Positions 20,203 to 30,935 of a DNA stretch of 45,707 bases are shown piece by piece. The translations under genes and the position numbers were made by a program. Below the pieces are notes generated by a model, which saw nothing but the letters and a program-made list of their open reading frames with translations, ran no database searches and had not been told where the DNA came from. Each line of letters starts with the position of its first letter. Within the stretch, counting starts at the first letter, position 1. The DNA comes from Treponema sp. (GTDB lineage Bacteria; Spirochaetota; Spirochaetia; Treponematales; Breznakiellaceae), in contig JAISSH010000130.1 of NCBI GenBank assembly GCA_031273265.1, positions 1-45,707 on the forward strand. The letters are read 5' to 3'.

Positions 20203-21882
20203 CTAGTTCTTGGTCACCGTAATCGAATCATACGGCGTATTTGCATTAAAATTATAACCTTCTTCAGCGCCGTCAACCTTACTGCTCACGGTGGCGATGG
20301 CGTAGGTTTTGAATGTTATAGTTTTGCCGTTAACGTCAACAATGGTGTAGCTCGGTATATAGGGCTGAACAAAAGCCGCGTTGGAGACGGGCAAAAAATC
20401 TCCGGTCAGGTAATCGGTGCTGCCGACATGAGTGGAACTGGTTCCTTCTTGGTCTGTGACATTGTCCAGATACGGATATGCTGTGTTAGGTGTAGGATCA
20501 GCTCCACCCACATAAAGGGTGTTTTTATATACAGAAGTTTTATCCGCCGCTACCGCGTAGTATTTCAGTCCGCTGCCGGTGGTGAAGGTAAGATAAATGG
20601 GGTTGCCGGGATTGTTCCATGTGGAACCCGAAGCCTTATTAAATCCTGTTTTAATCGGCACGGAGACCTTGCCGCCGTCCCTGCCTGAAAGCGGGTAACT
20701 TCGGGCGTATACATGGTCATGTCCGGCAAGGACAAAATCAACATTTTCGTCGGACATCAATTTTTCAAAGCCGGCTTCCACATAGCCCTGTATATCCCGG
20801 TCGGCGCAGTGATCGGCAACGCTGGCGGTGGATTTGTGATGCTGAACAATGAGCCAGTCGTATTTTCCCGCGAACTTGGCTTTCGCTGCCTGGATTGTAC
20901 TTTCAAACCGGTCAATGTGTAGTTTGGCATCGGCGACGGGAAAGACGGTTAAGTGGTTGCCGCTAGTAGTAGCATAGGGAGCTGTGTTCAGGACTACAAA
21001 AAGGATGTTGTTGTAAAGGTAAAAATAGTTTCTTCTCGCCGCAGTGGGCACCGTTTCGTCTGCAAATTCCTGCACGTTGGGCAAGTTATAGTGGTAGTTA
21101 AAATTAAGGTGATTGTCGTGGTTGCCGGATACGGGAGCAAAGGGAATACTCCGCAGTCCCGTCGGGGCGTAGAAAAGAGTATATTCGGCTTCATTGCCGG
21201 CGCTGGCGTCTACCTGATCTCCGCCGCTGACGATAAAACTTACATTCGCGGCTTCGATTTTCTTCATTGTTTCCTCCCAGCCGGCGCCTGTGTTATCGCC
21301 GTTAACAGGGTGGTATCGATTAAGAGCGTCCCAAGTCGATGCGTGAAGCTGTGGGTCTGCTATTACGGCAAAACGGAAAGCGCCGGTGGCGGCAGGAACC
21401 TTAAAATTATACAAAGGACTCCAGTTGTCTCCATCGTTTGACACCGCGTACTGATAACTAAAACCCGGCTTCAATCCTGTTATCGTAACTTTATGGGCGC
21501 TATAGCCGGTTGCCGCGTTACTCACTGCACCGGTTTCTTCAATTAATTCAGTTCCAGCGATGATGGTTCCCCTGATGAACCTGACCTGCGCAGTCTTGCC
21601 GGCAGAGGCTCCCGCGGAATACCAGTTAAGGTTAATCTCCGTTGTGTTATTCCCAGGATTCAAACCCAGTGTTAATGGTTTTAATTCAAGTCCCCAACTA
21701 AGCGCGTCTGGTCCGCTTGAATAGTTTGTAATAGTTTCAGTCTCTTCCGCTGATGTATTACCCCCTACCTTGCCTCCCAGATCATCATCGGCACACGCTC
21801 CCGCAAAAAACGCAAAAGCAATAACCAAAGGCAAGACAGCCATTTGAAACACAGGAATTTTTTTCTGTTTCTTAAACAACAT
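20203..21882 (-). CDS. Purple-acid-phosphatase-like metallophosphatase lipoprotein
   Basis: A 559-residue exported protein. A lipoprotein signal ends in FAGAC; an acidic/Ser linker follows, then a fibronectin-like N-terminal domain (about 50-165, TGLKPGFSYQYAVSNDG) and a calcineurin-type phosphoesterase domain. Metal ligands are visible: VIADPQLH, GGDQVDA, VSGNHDNH, VQHHKS and LAGHDHVYARSYP. The order of an FN3-like and a metallophosphatase domain fits the purple acid phosphatase family. Start ATG 21882 follows AAGGAGG; the frame could be read from 21942 but without that signal. It is divergent from the barrel/SPFH/ATPase operon. TTTAAC repeats lie between and resemble Pho-type sites. Role: probably phosphate-ester or nucleotide scavenging at the cell surface. 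Confidence 0.88.
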   Translation of the reverse strand: MLFKKQKKIPVFQMAVLPLVIAFAFFAGACADDDLGGKVGGNTSAEETETITNYSSGPDALSWGLELKPLTLGLNPGNNTTEINLNWYSAGASAGKTAQVRFIRGTIIAGTELIEETGAVSNAATGYSAHKVTITGLKPGFSYQYAVSNDGDNWSPLYNFKVPAATGAFRFAVIADPQLHASTWDALNRYHPVNGDNTGAGWEETMKKIEAANVSFIVSGGDQVDASAGNEAEYTLFYAPTGLRSIPFAPVSGNHDNHLNFNYHYNLPNVQEFADETVPTAARRNYFYLYNNILFVVLNTAPYATTSGNHLTVFPVADAKLHIDRFESTIQAAKAKFAGKYDWLIVQHHKSTASVADHCADRDIQGYVEAGFEKLMSDENVDFVLAGHDHVYARSYPLSGRDGGKVSVPIKTGFNKASGSTWNNPGNPIYLTFTTGSGLKYYAVAADKTSVYKNTLYVGGADPTPNTAYPYLDNVTDQEGTSSTHVGSTDYLTGDFLPVSNAAFVQPYIPSYTIVDVNGKTITFKTYAIATVSSKVDGAEEGYNFNANTPYDSITVTKN

Positions 21883-22001: not shown

Positions 22002-22074
22002 TTTATTTGAAATTGATAAAACTGATTGTCTTATGTCCAAAAATATTTACTATGAAAAACCTAAGGAGACAAAA

Positions 22075-23574
22075 ATGAAAAATAAAATTTTTGGATGTAC
22101 TTTACTGTTTGTTATTACGGCTGCGGGAGCATGGGCGCAGAATTTGCCAAATGTCCCAAACACAACTACCGGTCTTTGGTCATCGCCTCAAAGTACCATT
22201 ACAGAAGGAAGATACCGCAGTAACGCGGATAACTTTATTCGTCCCGATCAGTATACCGGCGTAAGCTTTGACAAATGGTTTGGAATGGTATCCTTTCTAT
22301 CTGACGATAACAACAGCGCTATCGCAACTGTCGGTCTTGCGACTAAAATCAGCGACTTGTATTTCGCCATGTTCTACTCGGGCAATATGTGGGCAGGTAA
22401 ACCTGTGAACAACTACATCGAACAGGAGCCAGGCACAGTTCCGGCAGGCGGCGCTGACGGCAAGGTCTATGATGTCTATACCAGCACTCCCAACGTGGCG
22501 ACAGGTCCCGTCAACAATGTCGCGTTGTTATTCGGCATTGGCAATATGGGTTTTAGAATCACCTATCGTACCAACTATCAGTCGTTCAAAGAGAACAACA
22601 TTGTGGTTGATACAACGCCCACAGGTCAACAGAACCGTACTTATCAACTGTACAGTGATTACTATGCTGAAAATGGTTATATCGCTCCGCAGGTTGCCTG
22701 GGCGCTGGCGAAGGATTTAACTAAAGACGGAATCAGACCCTATTTAACCGTCGATGGGATATTCAACCGTGATTATCAACAAACGAAAACGGCAGGCGAC
22801 GACAGCTTTGGTAATAAAGGTGAATTAATAGGACGCTCGTCGAATCATACTGATCCGTCTTTTGCCGTCGGTCTGGGCGGGTATCATATCTACAACAAGG
22901 ACGGTTTCAGACTCACCGCCGATCTTGACTATGTGCTTTCCTTTAAATTCTATAACAATGAGTACAGTTATGTTGATAATGGCGTGTATAAAACCGGAAA
23001 TATCAAAGGAACGTATAGTCCCGGCAGTAATCCCTACATTGAAAGGTCTTTTAATTCAAACCTTGTTACCCCTTCTCTCAGCGGTCAATGGAGCAGAGAT
23101 AAACTCGCGCTCAGGTTTAAATTTAATCTGCCGTTAACGTTCGAAAACGATGAACAAAATTCTATGACCCAGAATGAATCTGGAAAACTGGTTTATAATA
23201 ACGCAAGCAGTTCATCTTCCTCTTTTATCTTCCGTCCAGATTTGCGGCTTGCACTGCAATTCAAGATCGTTCCCGACAGGCTTACATTGAATGCCGGTGC
23301 GCGGCTTCAGGCTACAGCGGCTACGCTGAAAACGGTTGTTGAAAAATCCTATGACAACGGTAAAAAAGTCTATACGCGAAAACTGCATCAAGACTCGTAT
23401 GGCAGCGGTTTCGTCAGCCGTTTCAGCATCGGACCTACTCTTAACTTTACGGAAAATGCCTGGCTAGAAGCAGCCACCGGAGTTACTAACGTCTACGGTG
23501 ACGGAGCTATTGATGTATTTGCGCCGGGCGGTTTCTTCTCTTTCGGCAGTTTACTTGTAGGACTGAAATTCTAG
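22075..23574 (+). CDS. Outer-membrane beta-barrel protein
   Basis: A 499-residue protein with a cleavable signal peptide (MKNKIFGC..., cut after about AWAQ) and then alternating hydrophobic/polar strands rich in Tyr, Asn, Gly and Ser. It ends in LLVGLKF, a terminal Phe typical of proteins assembled by the BAM complex. Predicted location is the outer membrane. No known porin family is recognised; it resembles treponeme-specific barrel proteins. ATG 22075 follows AAGGAGAC. It is the first gene of the cluster with three SPFH proteins and a P-type ATPase (11-base gap to the next). It might provide the outer-membrane passage for that system, which is inference from position only. Confidence 0.75.
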   Translation: MKNKIFGCTLLFVITAAGAWAQNLPNVPNTTTGLWSSPQSTITEGRYRSNADNFIRPDQYTGVSFDKWFGMVSFLSDDNNSAIATVGLATKISDLYFAMFYSGNMWAGKPVNNYIEQEPGTVPAGGADGKVYDVYTSTPNVATGPVNNVALLFGIGNMGFRITYRTNYQSFKENNIVVDTTPTGQQNRTYQLYSDYYAENGYIAPQVAWALAKDLTKDGIRPYLTVDGIFNRDYQQTKTAGDDSFGNKGELIGRSSNHTDPSFAVGLGGYHIYNKDGFRLTADLDYVLSFKFYNNEYSYVDNGVYKTGNIKGTYSPGSNPYIERSFNSNLVTPSLSGQWSRDKLALRFKFNLPLTFENDEQNSMTQNESGKLVYNNASSSSSSFIFRPDLRLALQFKIVPDRLTLNAGARLQATAATLKTVVEKSYDNGKKVYTRKLHQDSYGSGFVSRFSIGPTLNFTENAWLEAATGVTNVYGDGAIDVFAPGGFFSFGSLLVGLKF

Positions 23575-23585
23575 GGAATTAATAG

Positions 23586-25406
23586 ATGAGATTGTTTCCG
23601 GTTATATTGGGGATTGCAGCCGTTGTCTGTATAAGGATTTTATCTTTTTACAGAAACGGCTTCCCCATATTATCAAGCCTCGCCAGCCTTACCCTGTCTT
23701 TGACGCTTTTCCTTATTCTGATAACGGTTGTTGATCTTCTAAACAGGTCTGACTTTAGTAAAACCGGACTTTGGGAAAAAGTTAAAAGATTTTTTTATAA
23801 AATTAAGGTTCTGCCAAAAATAAATGAAGAGCCAGAAGAAAATGAAAAAACCGCCGTTCAGCACGGCAATTTACAGCAGGACGGTCTAACCGAAATAAAA
23901 AGAAAAAATTCTTCACAGCCGCGCGAGACAGGCGTAAGTCTTGAAAAGCGGATATACGCGATTTTTTATATCATCTCCTTTTTAGGCATAGCGTTTTGGC
24001 GCATAATCGTAATTTTTAAGGTTATACCGTGGTCGTACGCAATGACGGATGCTGTTCAATACCGCGCCGGTATTGTTGACGCGGTTTTACTGCTTGTTTT
24101 CCCCTGCGTCTGCGTCCTCTACCTGAAAATGAGGGAAAACGGTTCATATCCCACAGATAAAATTTCGGGCGATATACTGATTTTATTTTCATATACTTCG
24201 TTTATCTACGCGGCGGTTATCGCGGCTGTCTCGGTATTGAATATAAATATTCTGGTTGTTTTGAAGTGGGTATATTACGCCGTTTCGGCGTACATTGTTG
24301 TTTCACTGGCGGTTAATATAGCGTTTTCAATGTTAAAAGGAAACATTTTAAGTTTTGATTACGCGCTGTTTCCAAAAGCTGGGACGCAGGAAGTAAAGTG
24401 GAATGTTTCCCTTAAATCGCTGTATACAATAAGGTACACCTTAACCATTTTGCCCGCTCTGGCGCTTGCCCTTGTTTTTGTTTTATTTCTGTCAACAACC
24501 GTTTTTGTCGTACAACCGCATCAACAGGCGGCGGTGTATCGTTTTGGAAAACTCAGCCCATCTTCTATAAAAAATGAAGGCGTCCATTTTAAATTTCCCT
24601 GGCCTGTTGAAAAAATTGAAAGTTATGATGTTCATCGCGTTTCTTCCATGCAAATCGGTTATCAATCGTCGCTCAGCGCGAATTTTTTATGGACAAAGAC
24701 GCACGATGGCGGCGAATATATGCTGCTTCTTGGAAACGGCAATGAAATGGCGGCGGTAAATTTAAAAATTATGTATATAATTTCCGATTTATATTTATAT
24801 ATCAAAACTTGTACAAACCCGGAAGCTGTGTTATCCGCCGCCGCTTACAACGCGCTTATGAGCCGGACTGTAAATACCACGCTTGATTCGTTTTTAAGCA
24901 TAGACAGAAATTCTCTTTCGGCGTCTGTATCTAATGAGTTGTCTCAGTTTTGTAAATCAGAAAAACTTGGGTTTTCAGTTGTGCAGGTTATTATTGAAAG
25001 CATACACCCTCCCGTAGAGATTGCAGACGTATATCAAAAAGTTGTAAGCGCTTCCATCGAAAAAACAGCGTTAATTACAAGAGCTGAAAGTTACGCCGGA
25101 GCAAAAGTCATTGAAGCGCAGAGACAAAGCAAAACCGCTATTGATGCCGCCCAAGCCATGCAGTACAGCAAAATCAGCGATGCGCAAAAAGAAACGGCTG
25201 TTTTTTACGCCACAATACAGGCGCAAAGAATATCCGGCGGCTCTTTTGAGTTGTCAAAAAACCTCGATGTTTATGAAAAGATTATCAAAAGCAATAAAGT
25301 ATATGTATTTTCACCCGGAGTGCAAAATGTCATATCAAAATTTATTATAGGAAAGGTAAACACGGTAAATTTATCGGGTGTTAATCAAGGAGACGGCAAT
25401 GAGTAA
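23586..25406 (+). CDS. SPFH/band-7 protein with multi-span N-terminus (HflK-like)
   Basis: A 606-residue protein of two parts. Residues 1-310 hold about seven hydrophobic spans (near 5-20, 33-52, 122-145, 163-182, 197-218, 222-246, 283-308) with a charged cytoplasmic insert at 55-120. Residues 310-600 are an SPFH/band-7 domain: VVQPHQQAAVYRFGK, GVHFKFPWPVEKIE, then an Ala/Glu-rich helical coil (SASIEKTALITRAESYAGAK). SPFH proteins form large ring assemblies that organise membranes and regulate proteases such as FtsH. An HflK-like domain fused to so many spans is uncommon. It is the first of three SPFH genes, overlapping the next by eight bases. Confidence 0.85.
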   Translation: MRLFPVILGIAAVVCIRILSFYRNGFPILSSLASLTLSLTLFLILITVVDLLNRSDFSKTGLWEKVKRFFYKIKVLPKINEEPEENEKTAVQHGNLQQDGLTEIKRKNSSQPRETGVSLEKRIYAIFYIISFLGIAFWRIIVIFKVIPWSYAMTDAVQYRAGIVDAVLLLVFPCVCVLYLKMRENGSYPTDKISGDILILFSYTSFIYAAVIAAVSVLNINILVVLKWVYYAVSAYIVVSLAVNIAFSMLKGNILSFDYALFPKAGTQEVKWNVSLKSLYTIRYTLTILPALALALVFVLFLSTTVFVVQPHQQAAVYRFGKLSPSSIKNEGVHFKFPWPVEKIESYDVHRVSSMQIGYQSSLSANFLWTKTHDGGEYMLLLGNGNEMAAVNLKIMYIISDLYLYIKTCTNPEAVLSAAAYNALMSRTVNTTLDSFLSIDRNSLSASVSNELSQFCKSEKLGFSVVQVIIESIHPPVEIADVYQKVVSASIEKTALITRAESYAGAKVIEAQRQSKTAIDAAQAMQYSKISDAQKETAVFYATIQAQRISGGSFELSKNLDVYEKIIKSNKVYVFSPGVQNVISKFIIGKVNTVNLSGVNQGDGNE

Positions 25407-26277
25407 AATATACAAGGTTTTTTTTGTTTTGATTTTTATTGTTATTGTGGCGGCGGCTGGATTCACATTTACTGTAAAAGAAGGTTACAGCGTTATCATC
25501 TCGCGTTTCGGGAAAATAGTTGATGTATGTCAGGACGCAGGGCTGTATTTTAAGCTTCCCTGGCCTGTTGATAAAATAATAATTTATGATACCAGAAATC
25601 AATATATGGATTCCGGCTATAATGAAACTCTTACCAATGATAAAATCAATATTATCCTTCAAACATATATAGTTTGGAAGATAGCTGATATAAGGAAATT
25701 TCACACAAGCATAGGAGATTATAACGCCGCTCAAAGACATCTAAACGATCTTGCGGCAACCGCAAAAAACAGCGTCCTTGGAAATTACCGGCTTTCTTCG
25801 CTCGTTTCAACTAACATTGATGAAATAAAGATAGATGAAATATGTAGAACTATCGAAGAAAAGACGGCTCAGGGCGCGCTTGCCAATTACGGCATAGAGA
25901 TTCAAACATTGAAGATAAAACGGCTTGCGCTGCCCGAAGCCAACATCAGAAGCGTTTTTAATCAGATGATAGCGGACAGGCAAAAATACGTTTCACAGTA
26001 TGTAGCGGAGGGGGAACGGGACGCCGCGTTAATCAGAGGCGAAGCGGACGCAAGAGCCGCCGAAATATACGCGCAGGGCAAACTTGAAGCGTCGGAAATA
26101 GAAGCCGAAACAGAAAGAATGATAGCGAGAATCTACGGAGAAGCGTACGACAGAAATGCTCGTCTTTTTACCTTTCTAAAAAAACTGATCGTGCTTGAGA
26201 ATTCTGTAAACGCTGACACAACAATTATTATGCGCGCAAATGAATCTCCATTTGACATAATAACGGGGTCAAATTAA
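25399..26277 (+). CDS. SPFH/band-7 protein, HflC-like
   Basis: A 292-residue protein with one N-terminal membrane anchor (about residues 7-26), an SPFH domain (KEGYSVIISRFGKIVD, AGLYFKLPWPVDK) and a C-terminal helical segment rich in charged residues and alanine (AALIRGEADARAAEIY). This is the layout of HflC/stomatin-type proteins, with the SPFH domain exposed on the outside of the inner membrane in the HflKC case. ATG 25399 overlaps the previous stop by eight bases with GGAGACGG as ribosome site. Translation is coupled to the preceding HflK-like protein, so the two should be made in comparable amounts and probably co-assemble. Confidence 0.85.
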   Translation: MSKIYKVFFVLIFIVIVAAAGFTFTVKEGYSVIISRFGKIVDVCQDAGLYFKLPWPVDKIIIYDTRNQYMDSGYNETLTNDKINIILQTYIVWKIADIRKFHTSIGDYNAAQRHLNDLAATAKNSVLGNYRLSSLVSTNIDEIKIDEICRTIEEKTAQGALANYGIEIQTLKIKRLALPEANIRSVFNQMIADRQKYVSQYVAEGERDAALIRGEADARAAEIYAQGKLEASEIEAETERMIARIYGEAYDRNARLFTFLKKLIVLENSVNADTTIIMRANESPFDIITGSN

Positions 26278-26288
26278 GGCAGCGGCAA

Positions 26289-27248
26289 ATGAAAAACAGA
26301 ATTTTTAGCGTTTTCACGCAAATAATGGAATACATCATAAAATATTTTAAATTAACTGTGTGTTTCGCTGTTATATTGATTGTGCTTTCGGGAGTATACC
26401 GCGTGGAAAGCAGTCAGACCGCCGTTGTGCTTCGTTTCGGCAGGCTGACGGGCGTTACTCCTGAAAAACAGGTAAAAAAGCCGGGACTGCATTTTGCTTT
26501 TCCGTTTTTTATAGATAAGGTAATTAAGATTCCGGTGTATGTCATACAGGAAAGGGAAATCACTGTGCATTATAAACCAGATGGAAGCGTAGTCTCTCCC
26601 GATATTGAAGAAAACGGCTATGTGTTAACCGGCGATAAAAATGTTGTACTGATAAGGGCAAAAATAAAATATCAGATAAATGACGCGGTGCGTTTTACAT
26701 TATTCAACAGCGACGCCGGCGTTATGATCGACGGCATAATCAGCGGAGAGTTAACCTGTATAGCCGCACATTCAAATGTGGATTCAATACTTACAAGCGG
26801 CAGAGCGCAGTTATCGCAGGATGTTATGCGCAATTCGCAGAAAATTATAGATGATTTAAAATTGGGAGTCCTTGTTTCCGGCGTAGAATTAACTGAAATT
26901 ACAGCGCCTGCCGAAACGATCAGATATTTTGAAGAAGTAAGAAACGCCTCTGTGTTTAAGGCAACCAGTTTTCAGCGGGCGCAGGAATACGCCTCTACAA
27001 GGATACTGGGAGCGCAGGCGGCGGCAGGCGCTCTTAAGCAGACCGCCGTAACTGAGCAGGCCGAAAGGCTGACAAAAGCCCGCGGCGAAATGGCGCAGTT
27101 TAACGGACTGTACGACCAATACGCGAGAAACCCGCAGATCATAATGTCCGGGACATTCAGGCAGAGAGTGGGAGAAGTTTTGAAAAAAGCGGGCAAATCA
27201 ATAGTTGTTCCGGCGGGCACAGAGACGCCGGTTTTCCTTTTACCGTAG
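26289..27248 (+). CDS. Third SPFH/band-7 protein of the cluster
   Basis: A 319-residue protein with an N-terminal membrane span (about residues 22-38), an SPFH domain (SSQTAVVLRFGRLTG, KPGLHFAFPFFIDKV) and a helical tail (EYASTRILGAQAAAGALKQTAV). It differs from the HflC-like neighbour in having a ~20-residue insert around VHYKPDGSVVSPDIEENGYVL split through the domain. Three consecutive non-identical SPFH genes are unusual; HflK-HflC systems have two. ATG 26289 comes 12 bases after the previous stop and the metal ATPase starts 10 bases after this gene ends, so all are one transcription unit. Likely a subunit of a hetero-oligomeric SPFH assembly. Confidence 0.83.
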   Translation: MKNRIFSVFTQIMEYIIKYFKLTVCFAVILIVLSGVYRVESSQTAVVLRFGRLTGVTPEKQVKKPGLHFAFPFFIDKVIKIPVYVIQEREITVHYKPDGSVVSPDIEENGYVLTGDKNVVLIRAKIKYQINDAVRFTLFNSDAGVMIDGIISGELTCIAAHSNVDSILTSGRAQLSQDVMRNSQKIIDDLKLGVLVSGVELTEITAPAETIRYFEEVRNASVFKATSFQRAQEYASTRILGAQAAAGALKQTAVTEQAERLTKARGEMAQFNGLYDQYARNPQIIMSGTFRQRVGEVLKKAGKSIVVPAGTETPVFLLP

Positions 27249-27257
27249 GGGTGAGTA

Positions 27258-29156
27258 ATGAAGAATATGGCAGACATTGCAGGTAACGGACATTTTTCAG
27301 ATGTGCATCTTTCAGACAAAGAGAAACTGAAGTTCAAAAACAGCATCCTGTCTCTTTCGGGCGCGCTCGTTTGCCTTGCCGCCGGACACATTTACGGAAG
27401 AATTTTTCCGCAGCAGGATATAATTCAGGTAATTATTTACCTTGTCGGTATTTGCATAATAGGAATTCCCATGTTTATTACCGCGATACGTGGACTTGTC
27501 TGTAAAGATATGAAATACGCTATGGAAATACTTGTAACAATTGCTATGATCATATCAACTTTAAGCGGACAATTTTTGCTTGCAATACTCATTCCCGTTA
27601 TTCTTACTTTTGTTCATTTTCTTGAAGAAAAAAGCATTATGGGAGGGCGGGACGCGATTGAAGGTTTAAAAACGATGCAGGCGGAAAAAGCAATCATATT
27701 AAAAGACGGAAAGGAAATTTTGATTGACGCGAAGGAATTAAAATCAGGCGATACAATTATAATAAAGCCCGGAATGTATTTGCCTGTCGACGGCGAGGTT
27801 GTATTTGGCGCGTCAAGCATTGATCAAAAATCACTCACAGGCGAATCCATACCGAAAACAGTTGAGATAGAAGATCCGGTATTTGCCGGAACGGTAAATA
27901 TTGACGGCAATATCAAAGTTAAGGTTACGAAGGAGTATGCGGATACTTCTTTCCAGAAAATAGTAAAACTGCTTGAGGATTCAGGACATATTCAAATGCC
28001 CGATACTAAAATTGTTGACAAGTTTATTTTTTACTATATTCCGCTAACGCTTGTTACGGCTCTTTTGGTGTGGCTGTTTACGCAGGATATAACAAGGGCT
28101 ATCGCCATCCTTGTCGCCAGTTGTCCATGCGGTCATCTGCTTATCAATTCCGCTCCTATGATTGCGGTGTTGGCAGACTCGGCAAAAAGGGGAATCCTTA
28201 TAAAAAATTCGTCCTTTGTGGAACATCTTGGAGAAACCGATTTTATAATTTTTGACAAAACAGGCACTATAACAAACGGAATTTTGGAGGCTGGCAGTTT
28301 CCATTTGGATCATGCATCTGATTTTAACGAACTTATTATGGCCGCTTCCTGCGCCGCGCACGCGTCGCTTCATCCAATATCGAAATCAATTATTTCGTTA
28401 TGCGAAAGAAAAGATATAGACAGGGACTTTGAAATAAAAGAACATATCGGTAAAGGAATTGAAGGAAAAAAGGGAGACGATGTGATTTATCTTGGCAGTT
28501 ACAGTTGGATGCGCTCACTGGGTTATCAAGTTTCTGATAAATATGAAAACTCAGGCGCATGCGACTGGGTTGTTAAGAACGGCAAAATACTCGGATGCAT
28601 TGTATTCAAAGATACGCCCCGTGATAACGCCGCGCAGGTTATAAGTCAACTAAAGAGCATGGGCGTGTCAAGAACATGCCTCTTGACAGGGGATCATTTT
28701 CAGTCGGCGAAAAAAATACAGGACGCGGTGGGAATTGATGAAATGCAATGTGAATTACTGCCGGAACAGAAGCTTGATTGTGTCGAAAAAATGATGGAAG
28801 GGCATACCGTTACGGTTATCGGAGACGGTATCAACGACGCCCTTGCCCTGTCGCGGGCGCATGTGGGAATAGCGATGGGAGCTATGGGTTCTGATACGGC
28901 GATTCAAAGCGCGGATATTGCTCTAATGAACAACAATCTTTCCAATATTCCCTATGTAATCAAACTGGCGCGGAGAACAAAAGATATTATTTATCAAAAC
29001 ATTATTTTGGCTTTTTCTGTAAGTATTATCATGATATTTTTGGCGGGAGCCGGTATTGTAACGCCAATCGCCGGCGCGTTTTTCCATAACATTGGCGCTT
29101 TTTTGGTATTACTAAACAGCAGCAGGGTGAGTCAATTCGGCAGTGCGCAGACTTGA
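27258..29156 (+). CDS. P1B-type metal-transporting ATPase lacking HMA domain
   Basis: A 632-residue heavy-metal P-type ATPase. Motifs in order: TGES (about 194-197), the metal-site CPC in ASCPCGHLLI (289-291), the phosphorylated Asp in FDKTGTITN (333), the HP motif of P1B enzymes (AHASLHP, about 368-373), TGDHFQSA and the GDGINDA hinge. A C-terminal pair of spans ends in HNIGAFLVLLNSSR. No N-terminal HMA (CxxC) domain exists; only a short leader with a few His. CPC followed by GH is atypical, and the terminal HN..NSSR resembles non-copper P1B groups, so substrate is uncertain. ATG 27258 follows AGGGGTG. It closes the barrel/SPFH cluster, which suggests the SPFH ring organises or regulates this pump. 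Confidence 0.9.
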   Translation: MKNMADIAGNGHFSDVHLSDKEKLKFKNSILSLSGALVCLAAGHIYGRIFPQQDIIQVIIYLVGICIIGIPMFITAIRGLVCKDMKYAMEILVTIAMIISTLSGQFLLAILIPVILTFVHFLEEKSIMGGRDAIEGLKTMQAEKAIILKDGKEILIDAKELKSGDTIIIKPGMYLPVDGEVVFGASSIDQKSLTGESIPKTVEIEDPVFAGTVNIDGNIKVKVTKEYADTSFQKIVKLLEDSGHIQMPDTKIVDKFIFYYIPLTLVTALLVWLFTQDITRAIAILVASCPCGHLLINSAPMIAVLADSAKRGILIKNSSFVEHLGETDFIIFDKTGTITNGILEAGSFHLDHASDFNELIMAASCAAHASLHPISKSIISLCERKDIDRDFEIKEHIGKGIEGKKGDDVIYLGSYSWMRSLGYQVSDKYENSGACDWVVKNGKILGCIVFKDTPRDNAAQVISQLKSMGVSRTCLLTGDHFQSAKKIQDAVGIDEMQCELLPEQKLDCVEKMMEGHTVTVIGDGINDALALSRAHVGIAMGAMGSDTAIQSADIALMNNNLSNIPYVIKLARRTKDIIYQNIILAFSVSIIMIFLAGAGIVTPIAGAFFHNIGAFLVLLNSSRVSQFGSAQT

Positions 29157-29187: not shown

Positions 29188-29295
29188 GCTCTGCGTCAGG
29201 AACCGTGCGAACAGTCGCCGCCTAACCCCGCCAGGTTCGGAAGAAAGCAACGGTAAGCGGATGTCTGCTGCGCCGCGGTCTCCCTGACGCGGGGC
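29188..29295 (+). ncRNA. ffs: Signal recognition particle RNA (4.5S type)
   Basis: A long hairpin: GCTCTGCGTCAGG (29188-29200) pairs throughout with CCTGACGCGGGGC (29283-29295), allowing G-U pairs. The apical loop region carries the diagnostic domain IV sequence CAGGTTCGGAAGAAAGCAAC with GGTAAGCGG, where FtsY/Ffh bind. About 108 nt, the small bacterial SRP RNA without Alu domain. Its position before dnaX-ybaB-recR is the usual neighbourhood. A TTGACC at 29153-29158 may be its -35, but the -10 is weak. Confidence 0.93.
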
Positions 29296-29453: not shown

Positions 29454-30935
29454 ATGGCAGATTCAGGCGCTCAGGGATATGAAGTTACGGCTTCCAAACT
29501 CAGACCCAAAACTTTTGACGAGTTAGCGGGGCAGGAATTTGTGGTTTCTACCCTGAAAAATTCTCTGCAAAGCGGGCATATCGCGCACGCTTACCTTTTT
29601 TCCGGTCCGAGGGGCTGCGGTAAAACCAGCGCGGCTCGTATTTTGGCGCGTTCGCTGAATTGCGAAAAAGCGGCGGAAGCGGGGTATAATGGGAATCCCT
29701 GCGGGGTCTGTGATAATTGCCGCGCTATCAGTCAGGGCGCGAGTATCGACGTGCTGGAAATTGACGGCGCGTCCAACAATTCGGTCAACGATGTGCGGCA
29801 GATCAAGGATGAAGTTCTTTTCCCGCCGCAAGCCGGACGTTACAAAGTTTATATCATTGACGAAGTTCATATGCTTTCCGGCAGCGCGTTCAACGCTCTG
29901 TTAAAAACCATCGAAGAGCCGCCGCCGTATATCGTTTTTATTTTTGCCACGACGGAACTGCACAAAGTTCCCGCCACGATAAAAAGCCGCTGTCAGCAGT
30001 TTAATTTCAGGCTTATACCGGTCGAAATAATTCAGGGGATACTGAAAAAAATCTGCGCCGAGAATGGAATCGAAGCTGAAGATGACGCGCTGTTCTGGAT
30101 AGCCAGAGAATCCACCGGCAGTATGAGGGACGCATTCACTCTTTTTGATCAGGTTGTCTCTTTTTCTTCCGGCGGCATACGCGGCGATCTGATCCGCGAA
30201 AAACTTGGCATAACAGGTCTTGAAAAACTGAACGAGTTGGCGGAGACATGCGCCGTGAACGACGCGTCCGGCGCTTTCGCGCTTATTGATAAAATTTTGG
30301 AATCGGGAGTCGCAATCGAACAGTTTGTAATTGACCTTGCCGGTTTTTTCCGAGGTCTTCTTCTGCTCAAAAACGGAGTAACAAGGGAATCGCTTTTGGG
30401 TTACCGACCCGCCCTGTTTTCCGCGAAGGCGTTGGAAACTTTCGATTCAATCCGTCTTGAACAGGCGCTTGATATTTTACTTGACTGTTACCGCAACATT
30501 CGCTATTCGGTGTCTCCGCGTTTTGAACTGGAAACCGCTGTTTCAAAACTGACATGGTTAAGCCGCTGGATTTCTCCAACGGAACTGAAGGACGCGGTGG
30601 AGAGCGCAAGGGGTGTTTTTCAACATTTACCTGCGCCCGCTGCTTATAAACAGCCGGTGAACAGTCCGCGTCCCGCACAGACGGAAACAGTTTCGCGTAA
30701 CGGAACGCCGGCGGCTCCCGCCCGCGGCTCACCTCCTGTTAACCAATCTGGCGGAGGGGATGATTCTTTTTCCAATGCTTTTCAGCGGATGATTGCTTCA
30801 AGGGAAAACGGTTCGGCGGAGGAAGATGATGTTCCTCTTTGGGACAGCGCGGTACATAAAAAAGACACTGAGGCGGAAATGCCGCCTCAGGTTGAACGCG
30901 TGCTTTCTATGATTCCCGGAACAGTCGTTCCTTGA
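29454..30935 (+). CDS. dnaX: DNA polymerase III gamma/tau subunit
   Basis: Clamp-loader ATPase, 493 residues. N-terminal LRPKTFDELAGQEFV, Walker A GPRGCGKTS (about 51-59), zinc cysteines (NCEKAAE..., CGVCDNC), Walker B/DEVH (YIIDEVHMLS), sensor 1 (FATTELHK) and the arginine finger SRCQQF are present, then domain III and a Pro-rich linker. The C-terminal tau-specific part is short compared with E. coli (643). Near the 3' end, AAAAAAG (30858-30864) is followed after three bases by a perfect 9-bp stem-loop (30868-30890), like a frameshift signal; the -1 frame stops after two codons. ATG 29454 has no clear ribosome site. It is followed by ybaB and recR, the usual order. Confidence 0.93.
   Translation: MADSGAQGYEVTASKLRPKTFDELAGQEFVVSTLKNSLQSGHIAHAYLFSGPRGCGKTSAARILARSLNCEKAAEAGYNGNPCGVCDNCRAISQGASIDVLEIDGASNNSVNDVRQIKDEVLFPPQAGRYKVYIIDEVHMLSGSAFNALLKTIEEPPPYIVFIFATTELHKVPATIKSRCQQFNFRLIPVEIIQGILKKICAENGIEAEDDALFWIARESTGSMRDAFTLFDQVVSFSSGGIRGDLIREKLGITGLEKLNELAETCAVNDASGAFALIDKILESGVAIEQFVIDLAGFFRGLLLLKNGVTRESLLGYRPALFSAKALETFDSIRLEQALDILLDCYRNIRYSVSPRFELETAVSKLTWLSRWISPTELKDAVESARGVFQHLPAPAAYKQPVNSPRPAQTETVSRNGTPAAPARGSPPVNQSGGGDDSFSNAFQRMIASRENGSAEEDDVPLWDSAVHKKDTEAEMPPQVERVLSMIPGTVVP

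Follow-up and report, generated by a model that had tools for sequence, protein, structure and literature searches.

The window analysed here, a 45,707-nucleotide stretch of Treponema sp. (positions 1 to 45,707 of contig JAISSH010000130.1, assembly GCA_031273265.1), carries five packed plus-strand genes that encode an outer-membrane barrel, three SPFH-domain proteins and a P1B-type metal-transporting ATPase, the last four of which prove to be a real inherited unit. The barrel, a TDE2508-family outer-membrane protein (22075-23574; NF049865, 128.2 bits against a cut-off of 125), is read from the ATG at 22075, its mechanically called open reading frame (ORF) beginning upstream at 22033. It is followed by K1, an HflK-like SPFH protein of 606 amino acids (23586-25406; Band_7 at residues 308-503), C, an HflC-like protein of 292 amino acids (25399-26277; TIGR01932 HflC and Band_7), K3, a second HflK-like protein of 319 amino acids (26289-27248; TIGR01933 HflK and Band_7), and the 632-residue ATPase, which lacks an HMA domain (27258-29156; TIGR01525, 479.7 bits). 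The ORF coordinates agree with the gaps of 11, -8, 11 and 9 bases given in the initial annotation, and its naming of the products as a barrel, three SPFH proteins and an HMA-less CPC-type P1B ATPase was confirmed by Pfam and NCBIfam families and by sequence motifs. The unit K1-C-K3-ATPase is hereafter termed the cassette.

Nineteen cassette-type ATPases were recovered in total, 17 of them with upstream DNA long enough for gene order to be read, and in 17 of these 17 loci, distributed over Treponema, Bacillota and Synergistota, the order K1-C-K3-ATPase is kept on one strand. The contig of genome G009 begins within K3 and that of G570 stops within the ATPase; locus L068 retains the four-gene order though frame-broken in its assembly, and was omitted from alignments A3-A6 and from the trees, its pieces being scored separately. 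Because the order recurs in three phyla, it stands above chance, and the expectation that the SPFH trio and an HMA-less ATPase would travel together across spirochaetes and other phyla was borne out. Of the 15 relatives in which the spacing between K3 and the ATPase was measured, 14 have 6-112 bases there and L067 has 879.

These loci come from several searches. Among 59 relatives, ATPase matches of at least 78% identity were found in five genomes, each belonging to the genus of the window (5 of 36 within the genus, 0 of 23 others), the next-best match by E-value being 36% identical. A scan of genome contigs with the ATPase yielded 13 loci, every one from a metagenome-assembled genome (MAG): four are in Treponema, six in Bacillota and three in Synergistaceae. 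To these a class sample of G063 added G374, G126 and G361 (4 of 391 genomes) and a phylum sample of G065 added G474 and G570 (5 of 149, three known before), the search centre being included in both counts. Control loci, chosen by ATPase score, gave a different picture: the 22 other P1B loci (L013 and L101 being the same place, hence 21 distinct), CPC+HN pumps among them, all lack SPFH genes within flanks of mostly ~1.5-3 kb per side and of 0-0.2 kb on one side in L021, L022, L023 and L053. The ZntA-type pumps that lie beside more distant SPFH trios (L093, L096; see below) came from an SPFH search and fall outside this control set.

Co-inheritance shows in the trees of the four genes (16 loci), which have 9-12 of 13 splits in common for every pair; L067 is included in alignment A7 and in this four-tree comparison, and is left out of the K1 alignment A6 and the 60-domain SPFH tree described below. 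In the gene trees, the window cassette clusters with those of other Treponema, adjoining the Clostridia MAG locus L060, inside the Bacillota cassette set, and the genes downstream of the cassette differ in each Treponema; taken together with the patchy presence within the genus, this placement points to spread of the cassette by horizontal transfer. A plasmid-borne cassette was considered and rejected, no match being obtained at E 1e-100 across 72,556 plasmid records; at E 1e-60, 1727 plasmid records match, and the 25 rows listed are ~32% identical pumps, nearly all CadA.

The barrel does not share in this conservation: among the 17 other cassette loci, a homologue was found in G032 alone, where it lies on the opposite strand beyond a phosphatase gene, with the caveat that several cassette loci have little upstream DNA, which limits both barrel and phosphatase counts. 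The cassette is, moreover, present in Bacillota, a phylum whose members mostly have no outer membrane. The initial annotation had cast the barrel as the outer-membrane exit, and this role did not survive the comparison: as a general exit pore the barrel is rejected on this count of one in 17. A trans-envelope export path in which SPFH cage, pump and barrel jointly conduct metal, which the 11 bases between barrel and K1 in this genome might seem to invite, is accordingly highly improbable and, as a general mechanism, largely refuted.

Consensus scans for regulatory signals returned promoter-like and terminator-like matches at about 2 standard deviations over shuffled sequence (25 versus 16.1 +/- 4.5 and 16 versus 8.7 +/- 3.1, respectively). 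On the plus strand, one promoter-like match (23579-23608) spans the junction between barrel and K1, the three later junctions have none across them, and terminator-like matches are absent from every junction of the five genes. Separate promoters may therefore exist among the five genes, and we build nothing further on these matches.

The ATPase contains E1-E2 ATPase and hydrolase domains and has no HMA match (Pfam, NCBIfam); it belongs to the P1B type, scoring above the cut-off of TIGR01525 (ATPase-IB_hvy) and retaining intact TGES (194), CPC (289), DKTGT (333), HP (372), GDGIND (522) and HN (610) motifs. CPC289 and HN610 are invariant in 13 aligned rows, and CPC together with HNxGAF occurs in 19 of 19 cassette ATPases. 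These proteins form their own clade (support 100/99), adjoining CPC+HN pumps and apart from ZntA types, in a tree for which the program warns of long branches meeting. Unlike CPC+HN relatives and ZntA types, they have no proline seven residues after CPC, the motif context being CPCGx[LM]L[IV][NS]SAP or CPCAQILVSST in the cassette and CPCALxLATP in the HN relatives.

In its relevant passages, PMC9374683 describes CtpC as carrying CPC and HN and names the pump P1B6-like; an earlier assignment of manganese to CtpC is mentioned there as well. By CPC and by the HN of the last metal-site helix the cassette ATPases may likewise be called P1B6-like, CtpC itself being compared by description only; by the altered CPC context they form a distinct subclade. 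The exported metal would be a soft divalent ion, and our guess is zinc, because of the analogy with CtpC and of the ArsR and ZntA-type neighbours of the distant trios. Neither DUF1490 nor DUF6110 is present in the five window genes (Pfam), no ORF of at least 80 amino acids lies between the window ATPase and dnaX, and neither family was found in 30 flanking proteins of relatives, most smaller ORFs there being outside the scan. A conserved flanking regulator or accessory gene was likewise absent from the 30 flanking proteins scanned, a tendency towards phosphatases aside. Metal-sensitive repressors of the CsoR/RcnR type (PF02583) were seen just upstream of non-cassette P1B ATPases (L099:1504-1791; L102:282-608).

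On the SPFH side, Band_7 is matched by K1, C and K3 at 57, 92 and 71 bits (Pfam, cut-off 23.6). C reaches 140.5 bits to TIGR01932 HflC, over the equivalog cut-off of 134.4, and K1 and K3 reach 96.4 and 139.3 bits to TIGR01933 HflK, both under its cut-off of 159.4 (NCBIfam). C is 55-86% identical to its counterparts in 11 cassette relatives; structurally, its nearest solved chains are HflC of FtsH-HflKC complexes (7vhp, 9paw), and the nearest solved relatives of K1 are HflK chains of such assemblies. In a tree of 60 SPFH domains, in which 10 of the 16 usable cassette loci and four distant trios are represented, the K1, C and K3 proteins fall into one clade apiece (Shimodaira-Hasegawa-like approximate likelihood ratio support of 99, 99 and 100) separate from the HflK and HflC proteins of the genus, although the genus HflC rows are partial (44-49% of columns), which makes the separation of C from HflC weaker. 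C and K3 each have one N-terminal hydrophobic segment, an anchor helix, and all three SPFH domains are predicted to be extracytoplasmic, given an N-terminus inside as in HflKC.

K1 differs in its N-terminal membrane region. The initial annotation credited it with about seven extra spans; there are seven hydrophobic segments in all, namely a six-helix N-terminal domain and, last, the SPFH anchor. The full K1 model is of low confidence (predicted local distance difference test score, pLDDT, 56.9), and its fold matches HflK/C and stomatin, with ZnT4 at E 1.4. Modelled alone, the N-terminal domain reaches a pLDDT of 71.8 and a predicted template-modelling (TM) score of 0.64, and ZnT chains (three of 32 listed; ZnT4 and ZnT1) give the top query-normalised TM-scores of 0.33-0.38 at non-significant E-values of 5.8-9.0. 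The family of cation diffusion facilitators (CDF; PF01545) was not found by Pfam in the window K1 or among eight K1 proteins scanned from other cassettes. A degenerate CDF domain as the identity of the K1 domain is not supported by profiles and is hinted at by the fold search, so that a CDF origin may be entertained as a hint from the models. Transport by the K1 domain itself is not indicated, since no conserved residue points to it.

More distant systems also join SPFH proteins to a metal-transporter domain. A profile search with C across 392 Spirochaetota genomes returned the window and five other loci, each with an SPFH trio ordered K1-C-K3, and in four of the four distinct distant trios the first SPFH protein is fused to a CDF domain (Cation_efflux plus Band_7; L093:5966-7477, L096:8374-9924, L095:8043-9785 and L092:213-2630). 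The fifth locus, L094, has a gene table and first protein identical to those of L093 although the two genomes belong to different genera (G969, G915), which reflects either recent transfer or contamination of one assembly. HxxxD pairs are present in the CDF domain of three of the four distinct fusions, with none in L092, and when the phylum was searched with the fusion itself, only G969, G915, G950 and G667, among the matches listed, cover the CDF part too. The trios of G969/G915 and G950 have as neighbours an ArsR regulator, a PPIC isomerase and a ZntA-type ATPase with an HMA domain, such that ArsR and a ZntA-type ATPase adjoin two of the four distinct trios; the contig of G667 is too short to judge an ATPase neighbour.

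These fusions bear on whether the cassette reflects co-regulation only, that is, an envelope- and metal-stress operon whose SPFH proteins guard the membrane while detoxification falls to the pump, with no contact between them. Tight spacing would account for the arrangement without any complex, and SPFH proteins have general membrane roles. Against this stand a composition and order that are invariant in three phyla despite flanking genes that vary between loci, the congruence of the four gene trees, and the covalent attachment of a transporter domain to an SPFH protein in the distant trios, and we therefore consider co-regulation alone rather improbable.

A somewhat more credible, if still unlikely, alternative makes the trio a dedicated FtsH adaptor that brings the pump to FtsH or shields it, and so matches the amount of pump to need. 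As noted, the nearest solved relatives are HflK and HflC of FtsH complexes, C clears the HflC cut-off, and in L093 both C and K3 clear the HflC and HflK cut-offs. M41 peptidase (FtsH) matches occur in 16 of 18 cassette genomes, and a separate tandem SPFH pair was read in 10 of the 18 and in none of the other eight, where the trio could therefore also serve FtsH. In opposition to such an adaptor, the M41 match of these 16 genomes lies off the cassette contig in all except G474, where it is ~0.2 Mb away, two cassette genomes, both drafts, gave no M41 match, and the present genome has an HflK/HflC pair besides its trio.

The present genome adds a separate HflK/HflC pair on contig C21 (300.4 and 279.5 bits, both over the NCBIfam cut-offs), which excludes the trio as its ordinary HflKC pair. 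With the separate clades of K1, C and K3, this pair upholds the view that the trio is not simply the standard protease modulator. The argument originally given for that view, the absence of an FtsH gene, is correct for the window and fails for the genome, which has two M41 matches elsewhere. Separately, in the 1.7 Mb genome of G474 (contig C1; from the G065 phylum sample), the sole three Band_7 matches are the cassette genes.

We consider it probable, though well short of certain, that K1-C-K3 constitutes an HflKC-like extracytoplasmic dome dedicated to the co-encoded metal-exporting P1B ATPase. The three proteins would assemble at the extracytoplasmic surface of the cytoplasmic membrane, the ATPase with its CPC and HN motifs would export a soft divalent metal from the cytoplasm, and the six-helix domain of K1, lodged in the membrane area beneath the dome, would link ring and pump, its place being taken by the fused CDF transporter domain in more distant systems. 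The assembly may cluster and stabilise the pump, or may confine the exported metal. A cage tied to metal transport fits because SPFH genes and pump travel together, because their trees are congruent, and because the distant trios carry fused CDF domains.

Several results weigh against this dedicated dome. The cassette is rare (5 of 36 genus genomes, and 4 of 391, 5 of 149 and 1 of 398 in the wider samples, search centres included), no ATPase accompanies the distant trio of G683 within the 16 kb examined, C itself scores as HflC, and in eight cassette genomes no tandem SPFH pair was read besides the trio. For the K1 N-terminal domain, the fold search gives no significant match, comparison with the fused CDF domains by hhalign reveals no profile similarity (probability 0.7%), and an alignment of 16 sequences shows no polar motif conserved within the membrane helices.

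Comparison with known systems sharpens what the dome would be. The CtpC-PacL1 pair of mycobacteria is similar in that a CPC+HN P1B ATPase is co-encoded with a membrane protein proposed as the scaffold of pump platforms; the passages of PMC9374683 on this pair describe the partner as a small DUF1490 protein, foci as forming without flotillin, and the N-terminal metal-binding domain of CtpC as essential, whereas the cassette has three SPFH proteins as partner and an ATPase without HMA. The CPC+HN pumps compared also have the proline at +7 that the cassette ATPase lacks. The most economical account would be a dedicated SPFH dome that works for its metal pump as the FtsH-HflKC and stomatin enclosures do for their clients, in the role that PacL1 has for CtpC.

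The HflK-HflC-FtsH complex (7vhp, 7wi3, 9cz1/9cz2), described as an enclosure in the relevant passages of PMC12048511, shares HflK- and HflC-like SPFH proteins, predicted in the cassette to be extracytoplasmic; the cassette differs in having three SPFH proteins in clades of their own, one with six extra helices, and a P1B ATPase as partner. Stomatin domes, according to the relevant part of PMC12407830, enclose AQP1 and UT-B, and thus offer a precedent for an SPFH dome that corrals a transporter in a membrane patch, an enclosure that we infer for the cassette; stomatin is, however, human, a single SPFH protein and, in that part of the source, without a dedicated operon partner. Cation diffusion facilitators such as ZnT and YiiP have a counterpart in the CDF domain of the distant K1 homologues, with HxxxD pairs in three of four, although the window K1 has no detectable CDF similarity and the ZnT fold matches are weak and non-significant. 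ZntA/CadA pumps (P1B-2) share the P1B core and CPC, with ~32% identity to plasmid CadA, and are set apart by the missing HMA domain, by HN where ZntA-type relatives have DVG, and by the separate clade. On the features tested, membership of the HflKC-FtsH or PacL systems does not by itself describe the cassette, although C clears the HflC cut-off.

Among the matches listed in a search of open-licence literature, no description of an association between an SPFH trio and a P1B ATPase was found, and the relevant passages of PMC2636767 and PMC13086221 contain no P-type ATPase. The clients of most bacterial SPFH assemblies are an open question, and in this case the gene content itself points to one. 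The cassette also offers a small, expressible system for asking whether SPFH domes enclose transporters and with what effect on transport, and the poorly characterised CPC+HN P1B ATPases would gain a second kind of partner besides PacL.

Another line of evidence concerns secreted metalloenzymes. Divergent from and upstream of the five genes lies a purple-acid-phosphatase-like gene (20203-21882, minus strand; PF16656, PF00149) with a lipoprotein-like N-terminus by eye, and such genes occur near the cassette in three lineages (L048:8455-11889, L051:13834-15678, L083:9998-11557 and L066:1-1245, besides the window). Five of 18 genomes (G000, G005, G032, G060 and G065) have a PF16656 phosphatase no more than ~6 kb from the cassette; it is the single PF16656 match in the G000 and G065 assemblies and the only one over the cut-off in G032, and over-cut-off matches number 34 across the 18 genomes. 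The expectation by position is 0.2 genomes (P 4e-7 uncorrected, 6e-4 with Treponema counted as one lineage), values that are too favourable, family and distance having been picked after the hits. The window phosphatase is 63% identical to that of G032, those of G005 and G060 are ~23-27% identical to these, and that of G065 has no BLAST match to the others; because they differ so strongly between lineages, the phosphatases did not simply travel with one cassette.

The link between cassette and secreted purple acid phosphatases is suggestive only. It would be explained if the dome were a metal-loading chamber, beneath which the pump releases metal and exported metalloenzymes such as these phosphatases take up their cofactor, and the divergence of the phosphatases and the PPIC-type isomerase adjoining two distant trios are consistent with it. 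The post hoc nature of the test and the 13 of 18 genomes without such a neighbour, several of them with little upstream DNA, nevertheless leave a loading chamber quite improbable. A broader generalisation, in which SPFH domes serve bacteria as metal-transport compartments with a built-in or co-encoded transporter (the fused CDF domain of some spirochaetes, the P1B ATPase of this cassette) and hand exported metal to secreted metalloenzymes such as purple acid phosphatases rather than simply discarding it, is for now a long shot.

Beyond the cassette, the downstream boundary is marked by a bacterial small signal recognition particle RNA (29194-29292, plus strand; Rfam RF00169, 61.3 bits), which lies outside the unit, and by a dnaX-like gene (29454-30935, on a Pfam basis). 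Among individual relatives, a phytase-like esterase (PF13449; L066:1391-3814) is divergent from K1 in a Synergistaceae MAG, and a PemK/MazF-family protein (L048:7649-7993) stands immediately 5' of K1 in one Treponema. A WD40 beta-propeller protein (L049:2797-3762) adjoins the cassette in a Treponema MAG, and a YibE/F-family membrane protein is encoded on the opposite strand directly 3' of the cassette in G126 and G361 (L079:5059-6246; L080:9435-10604).

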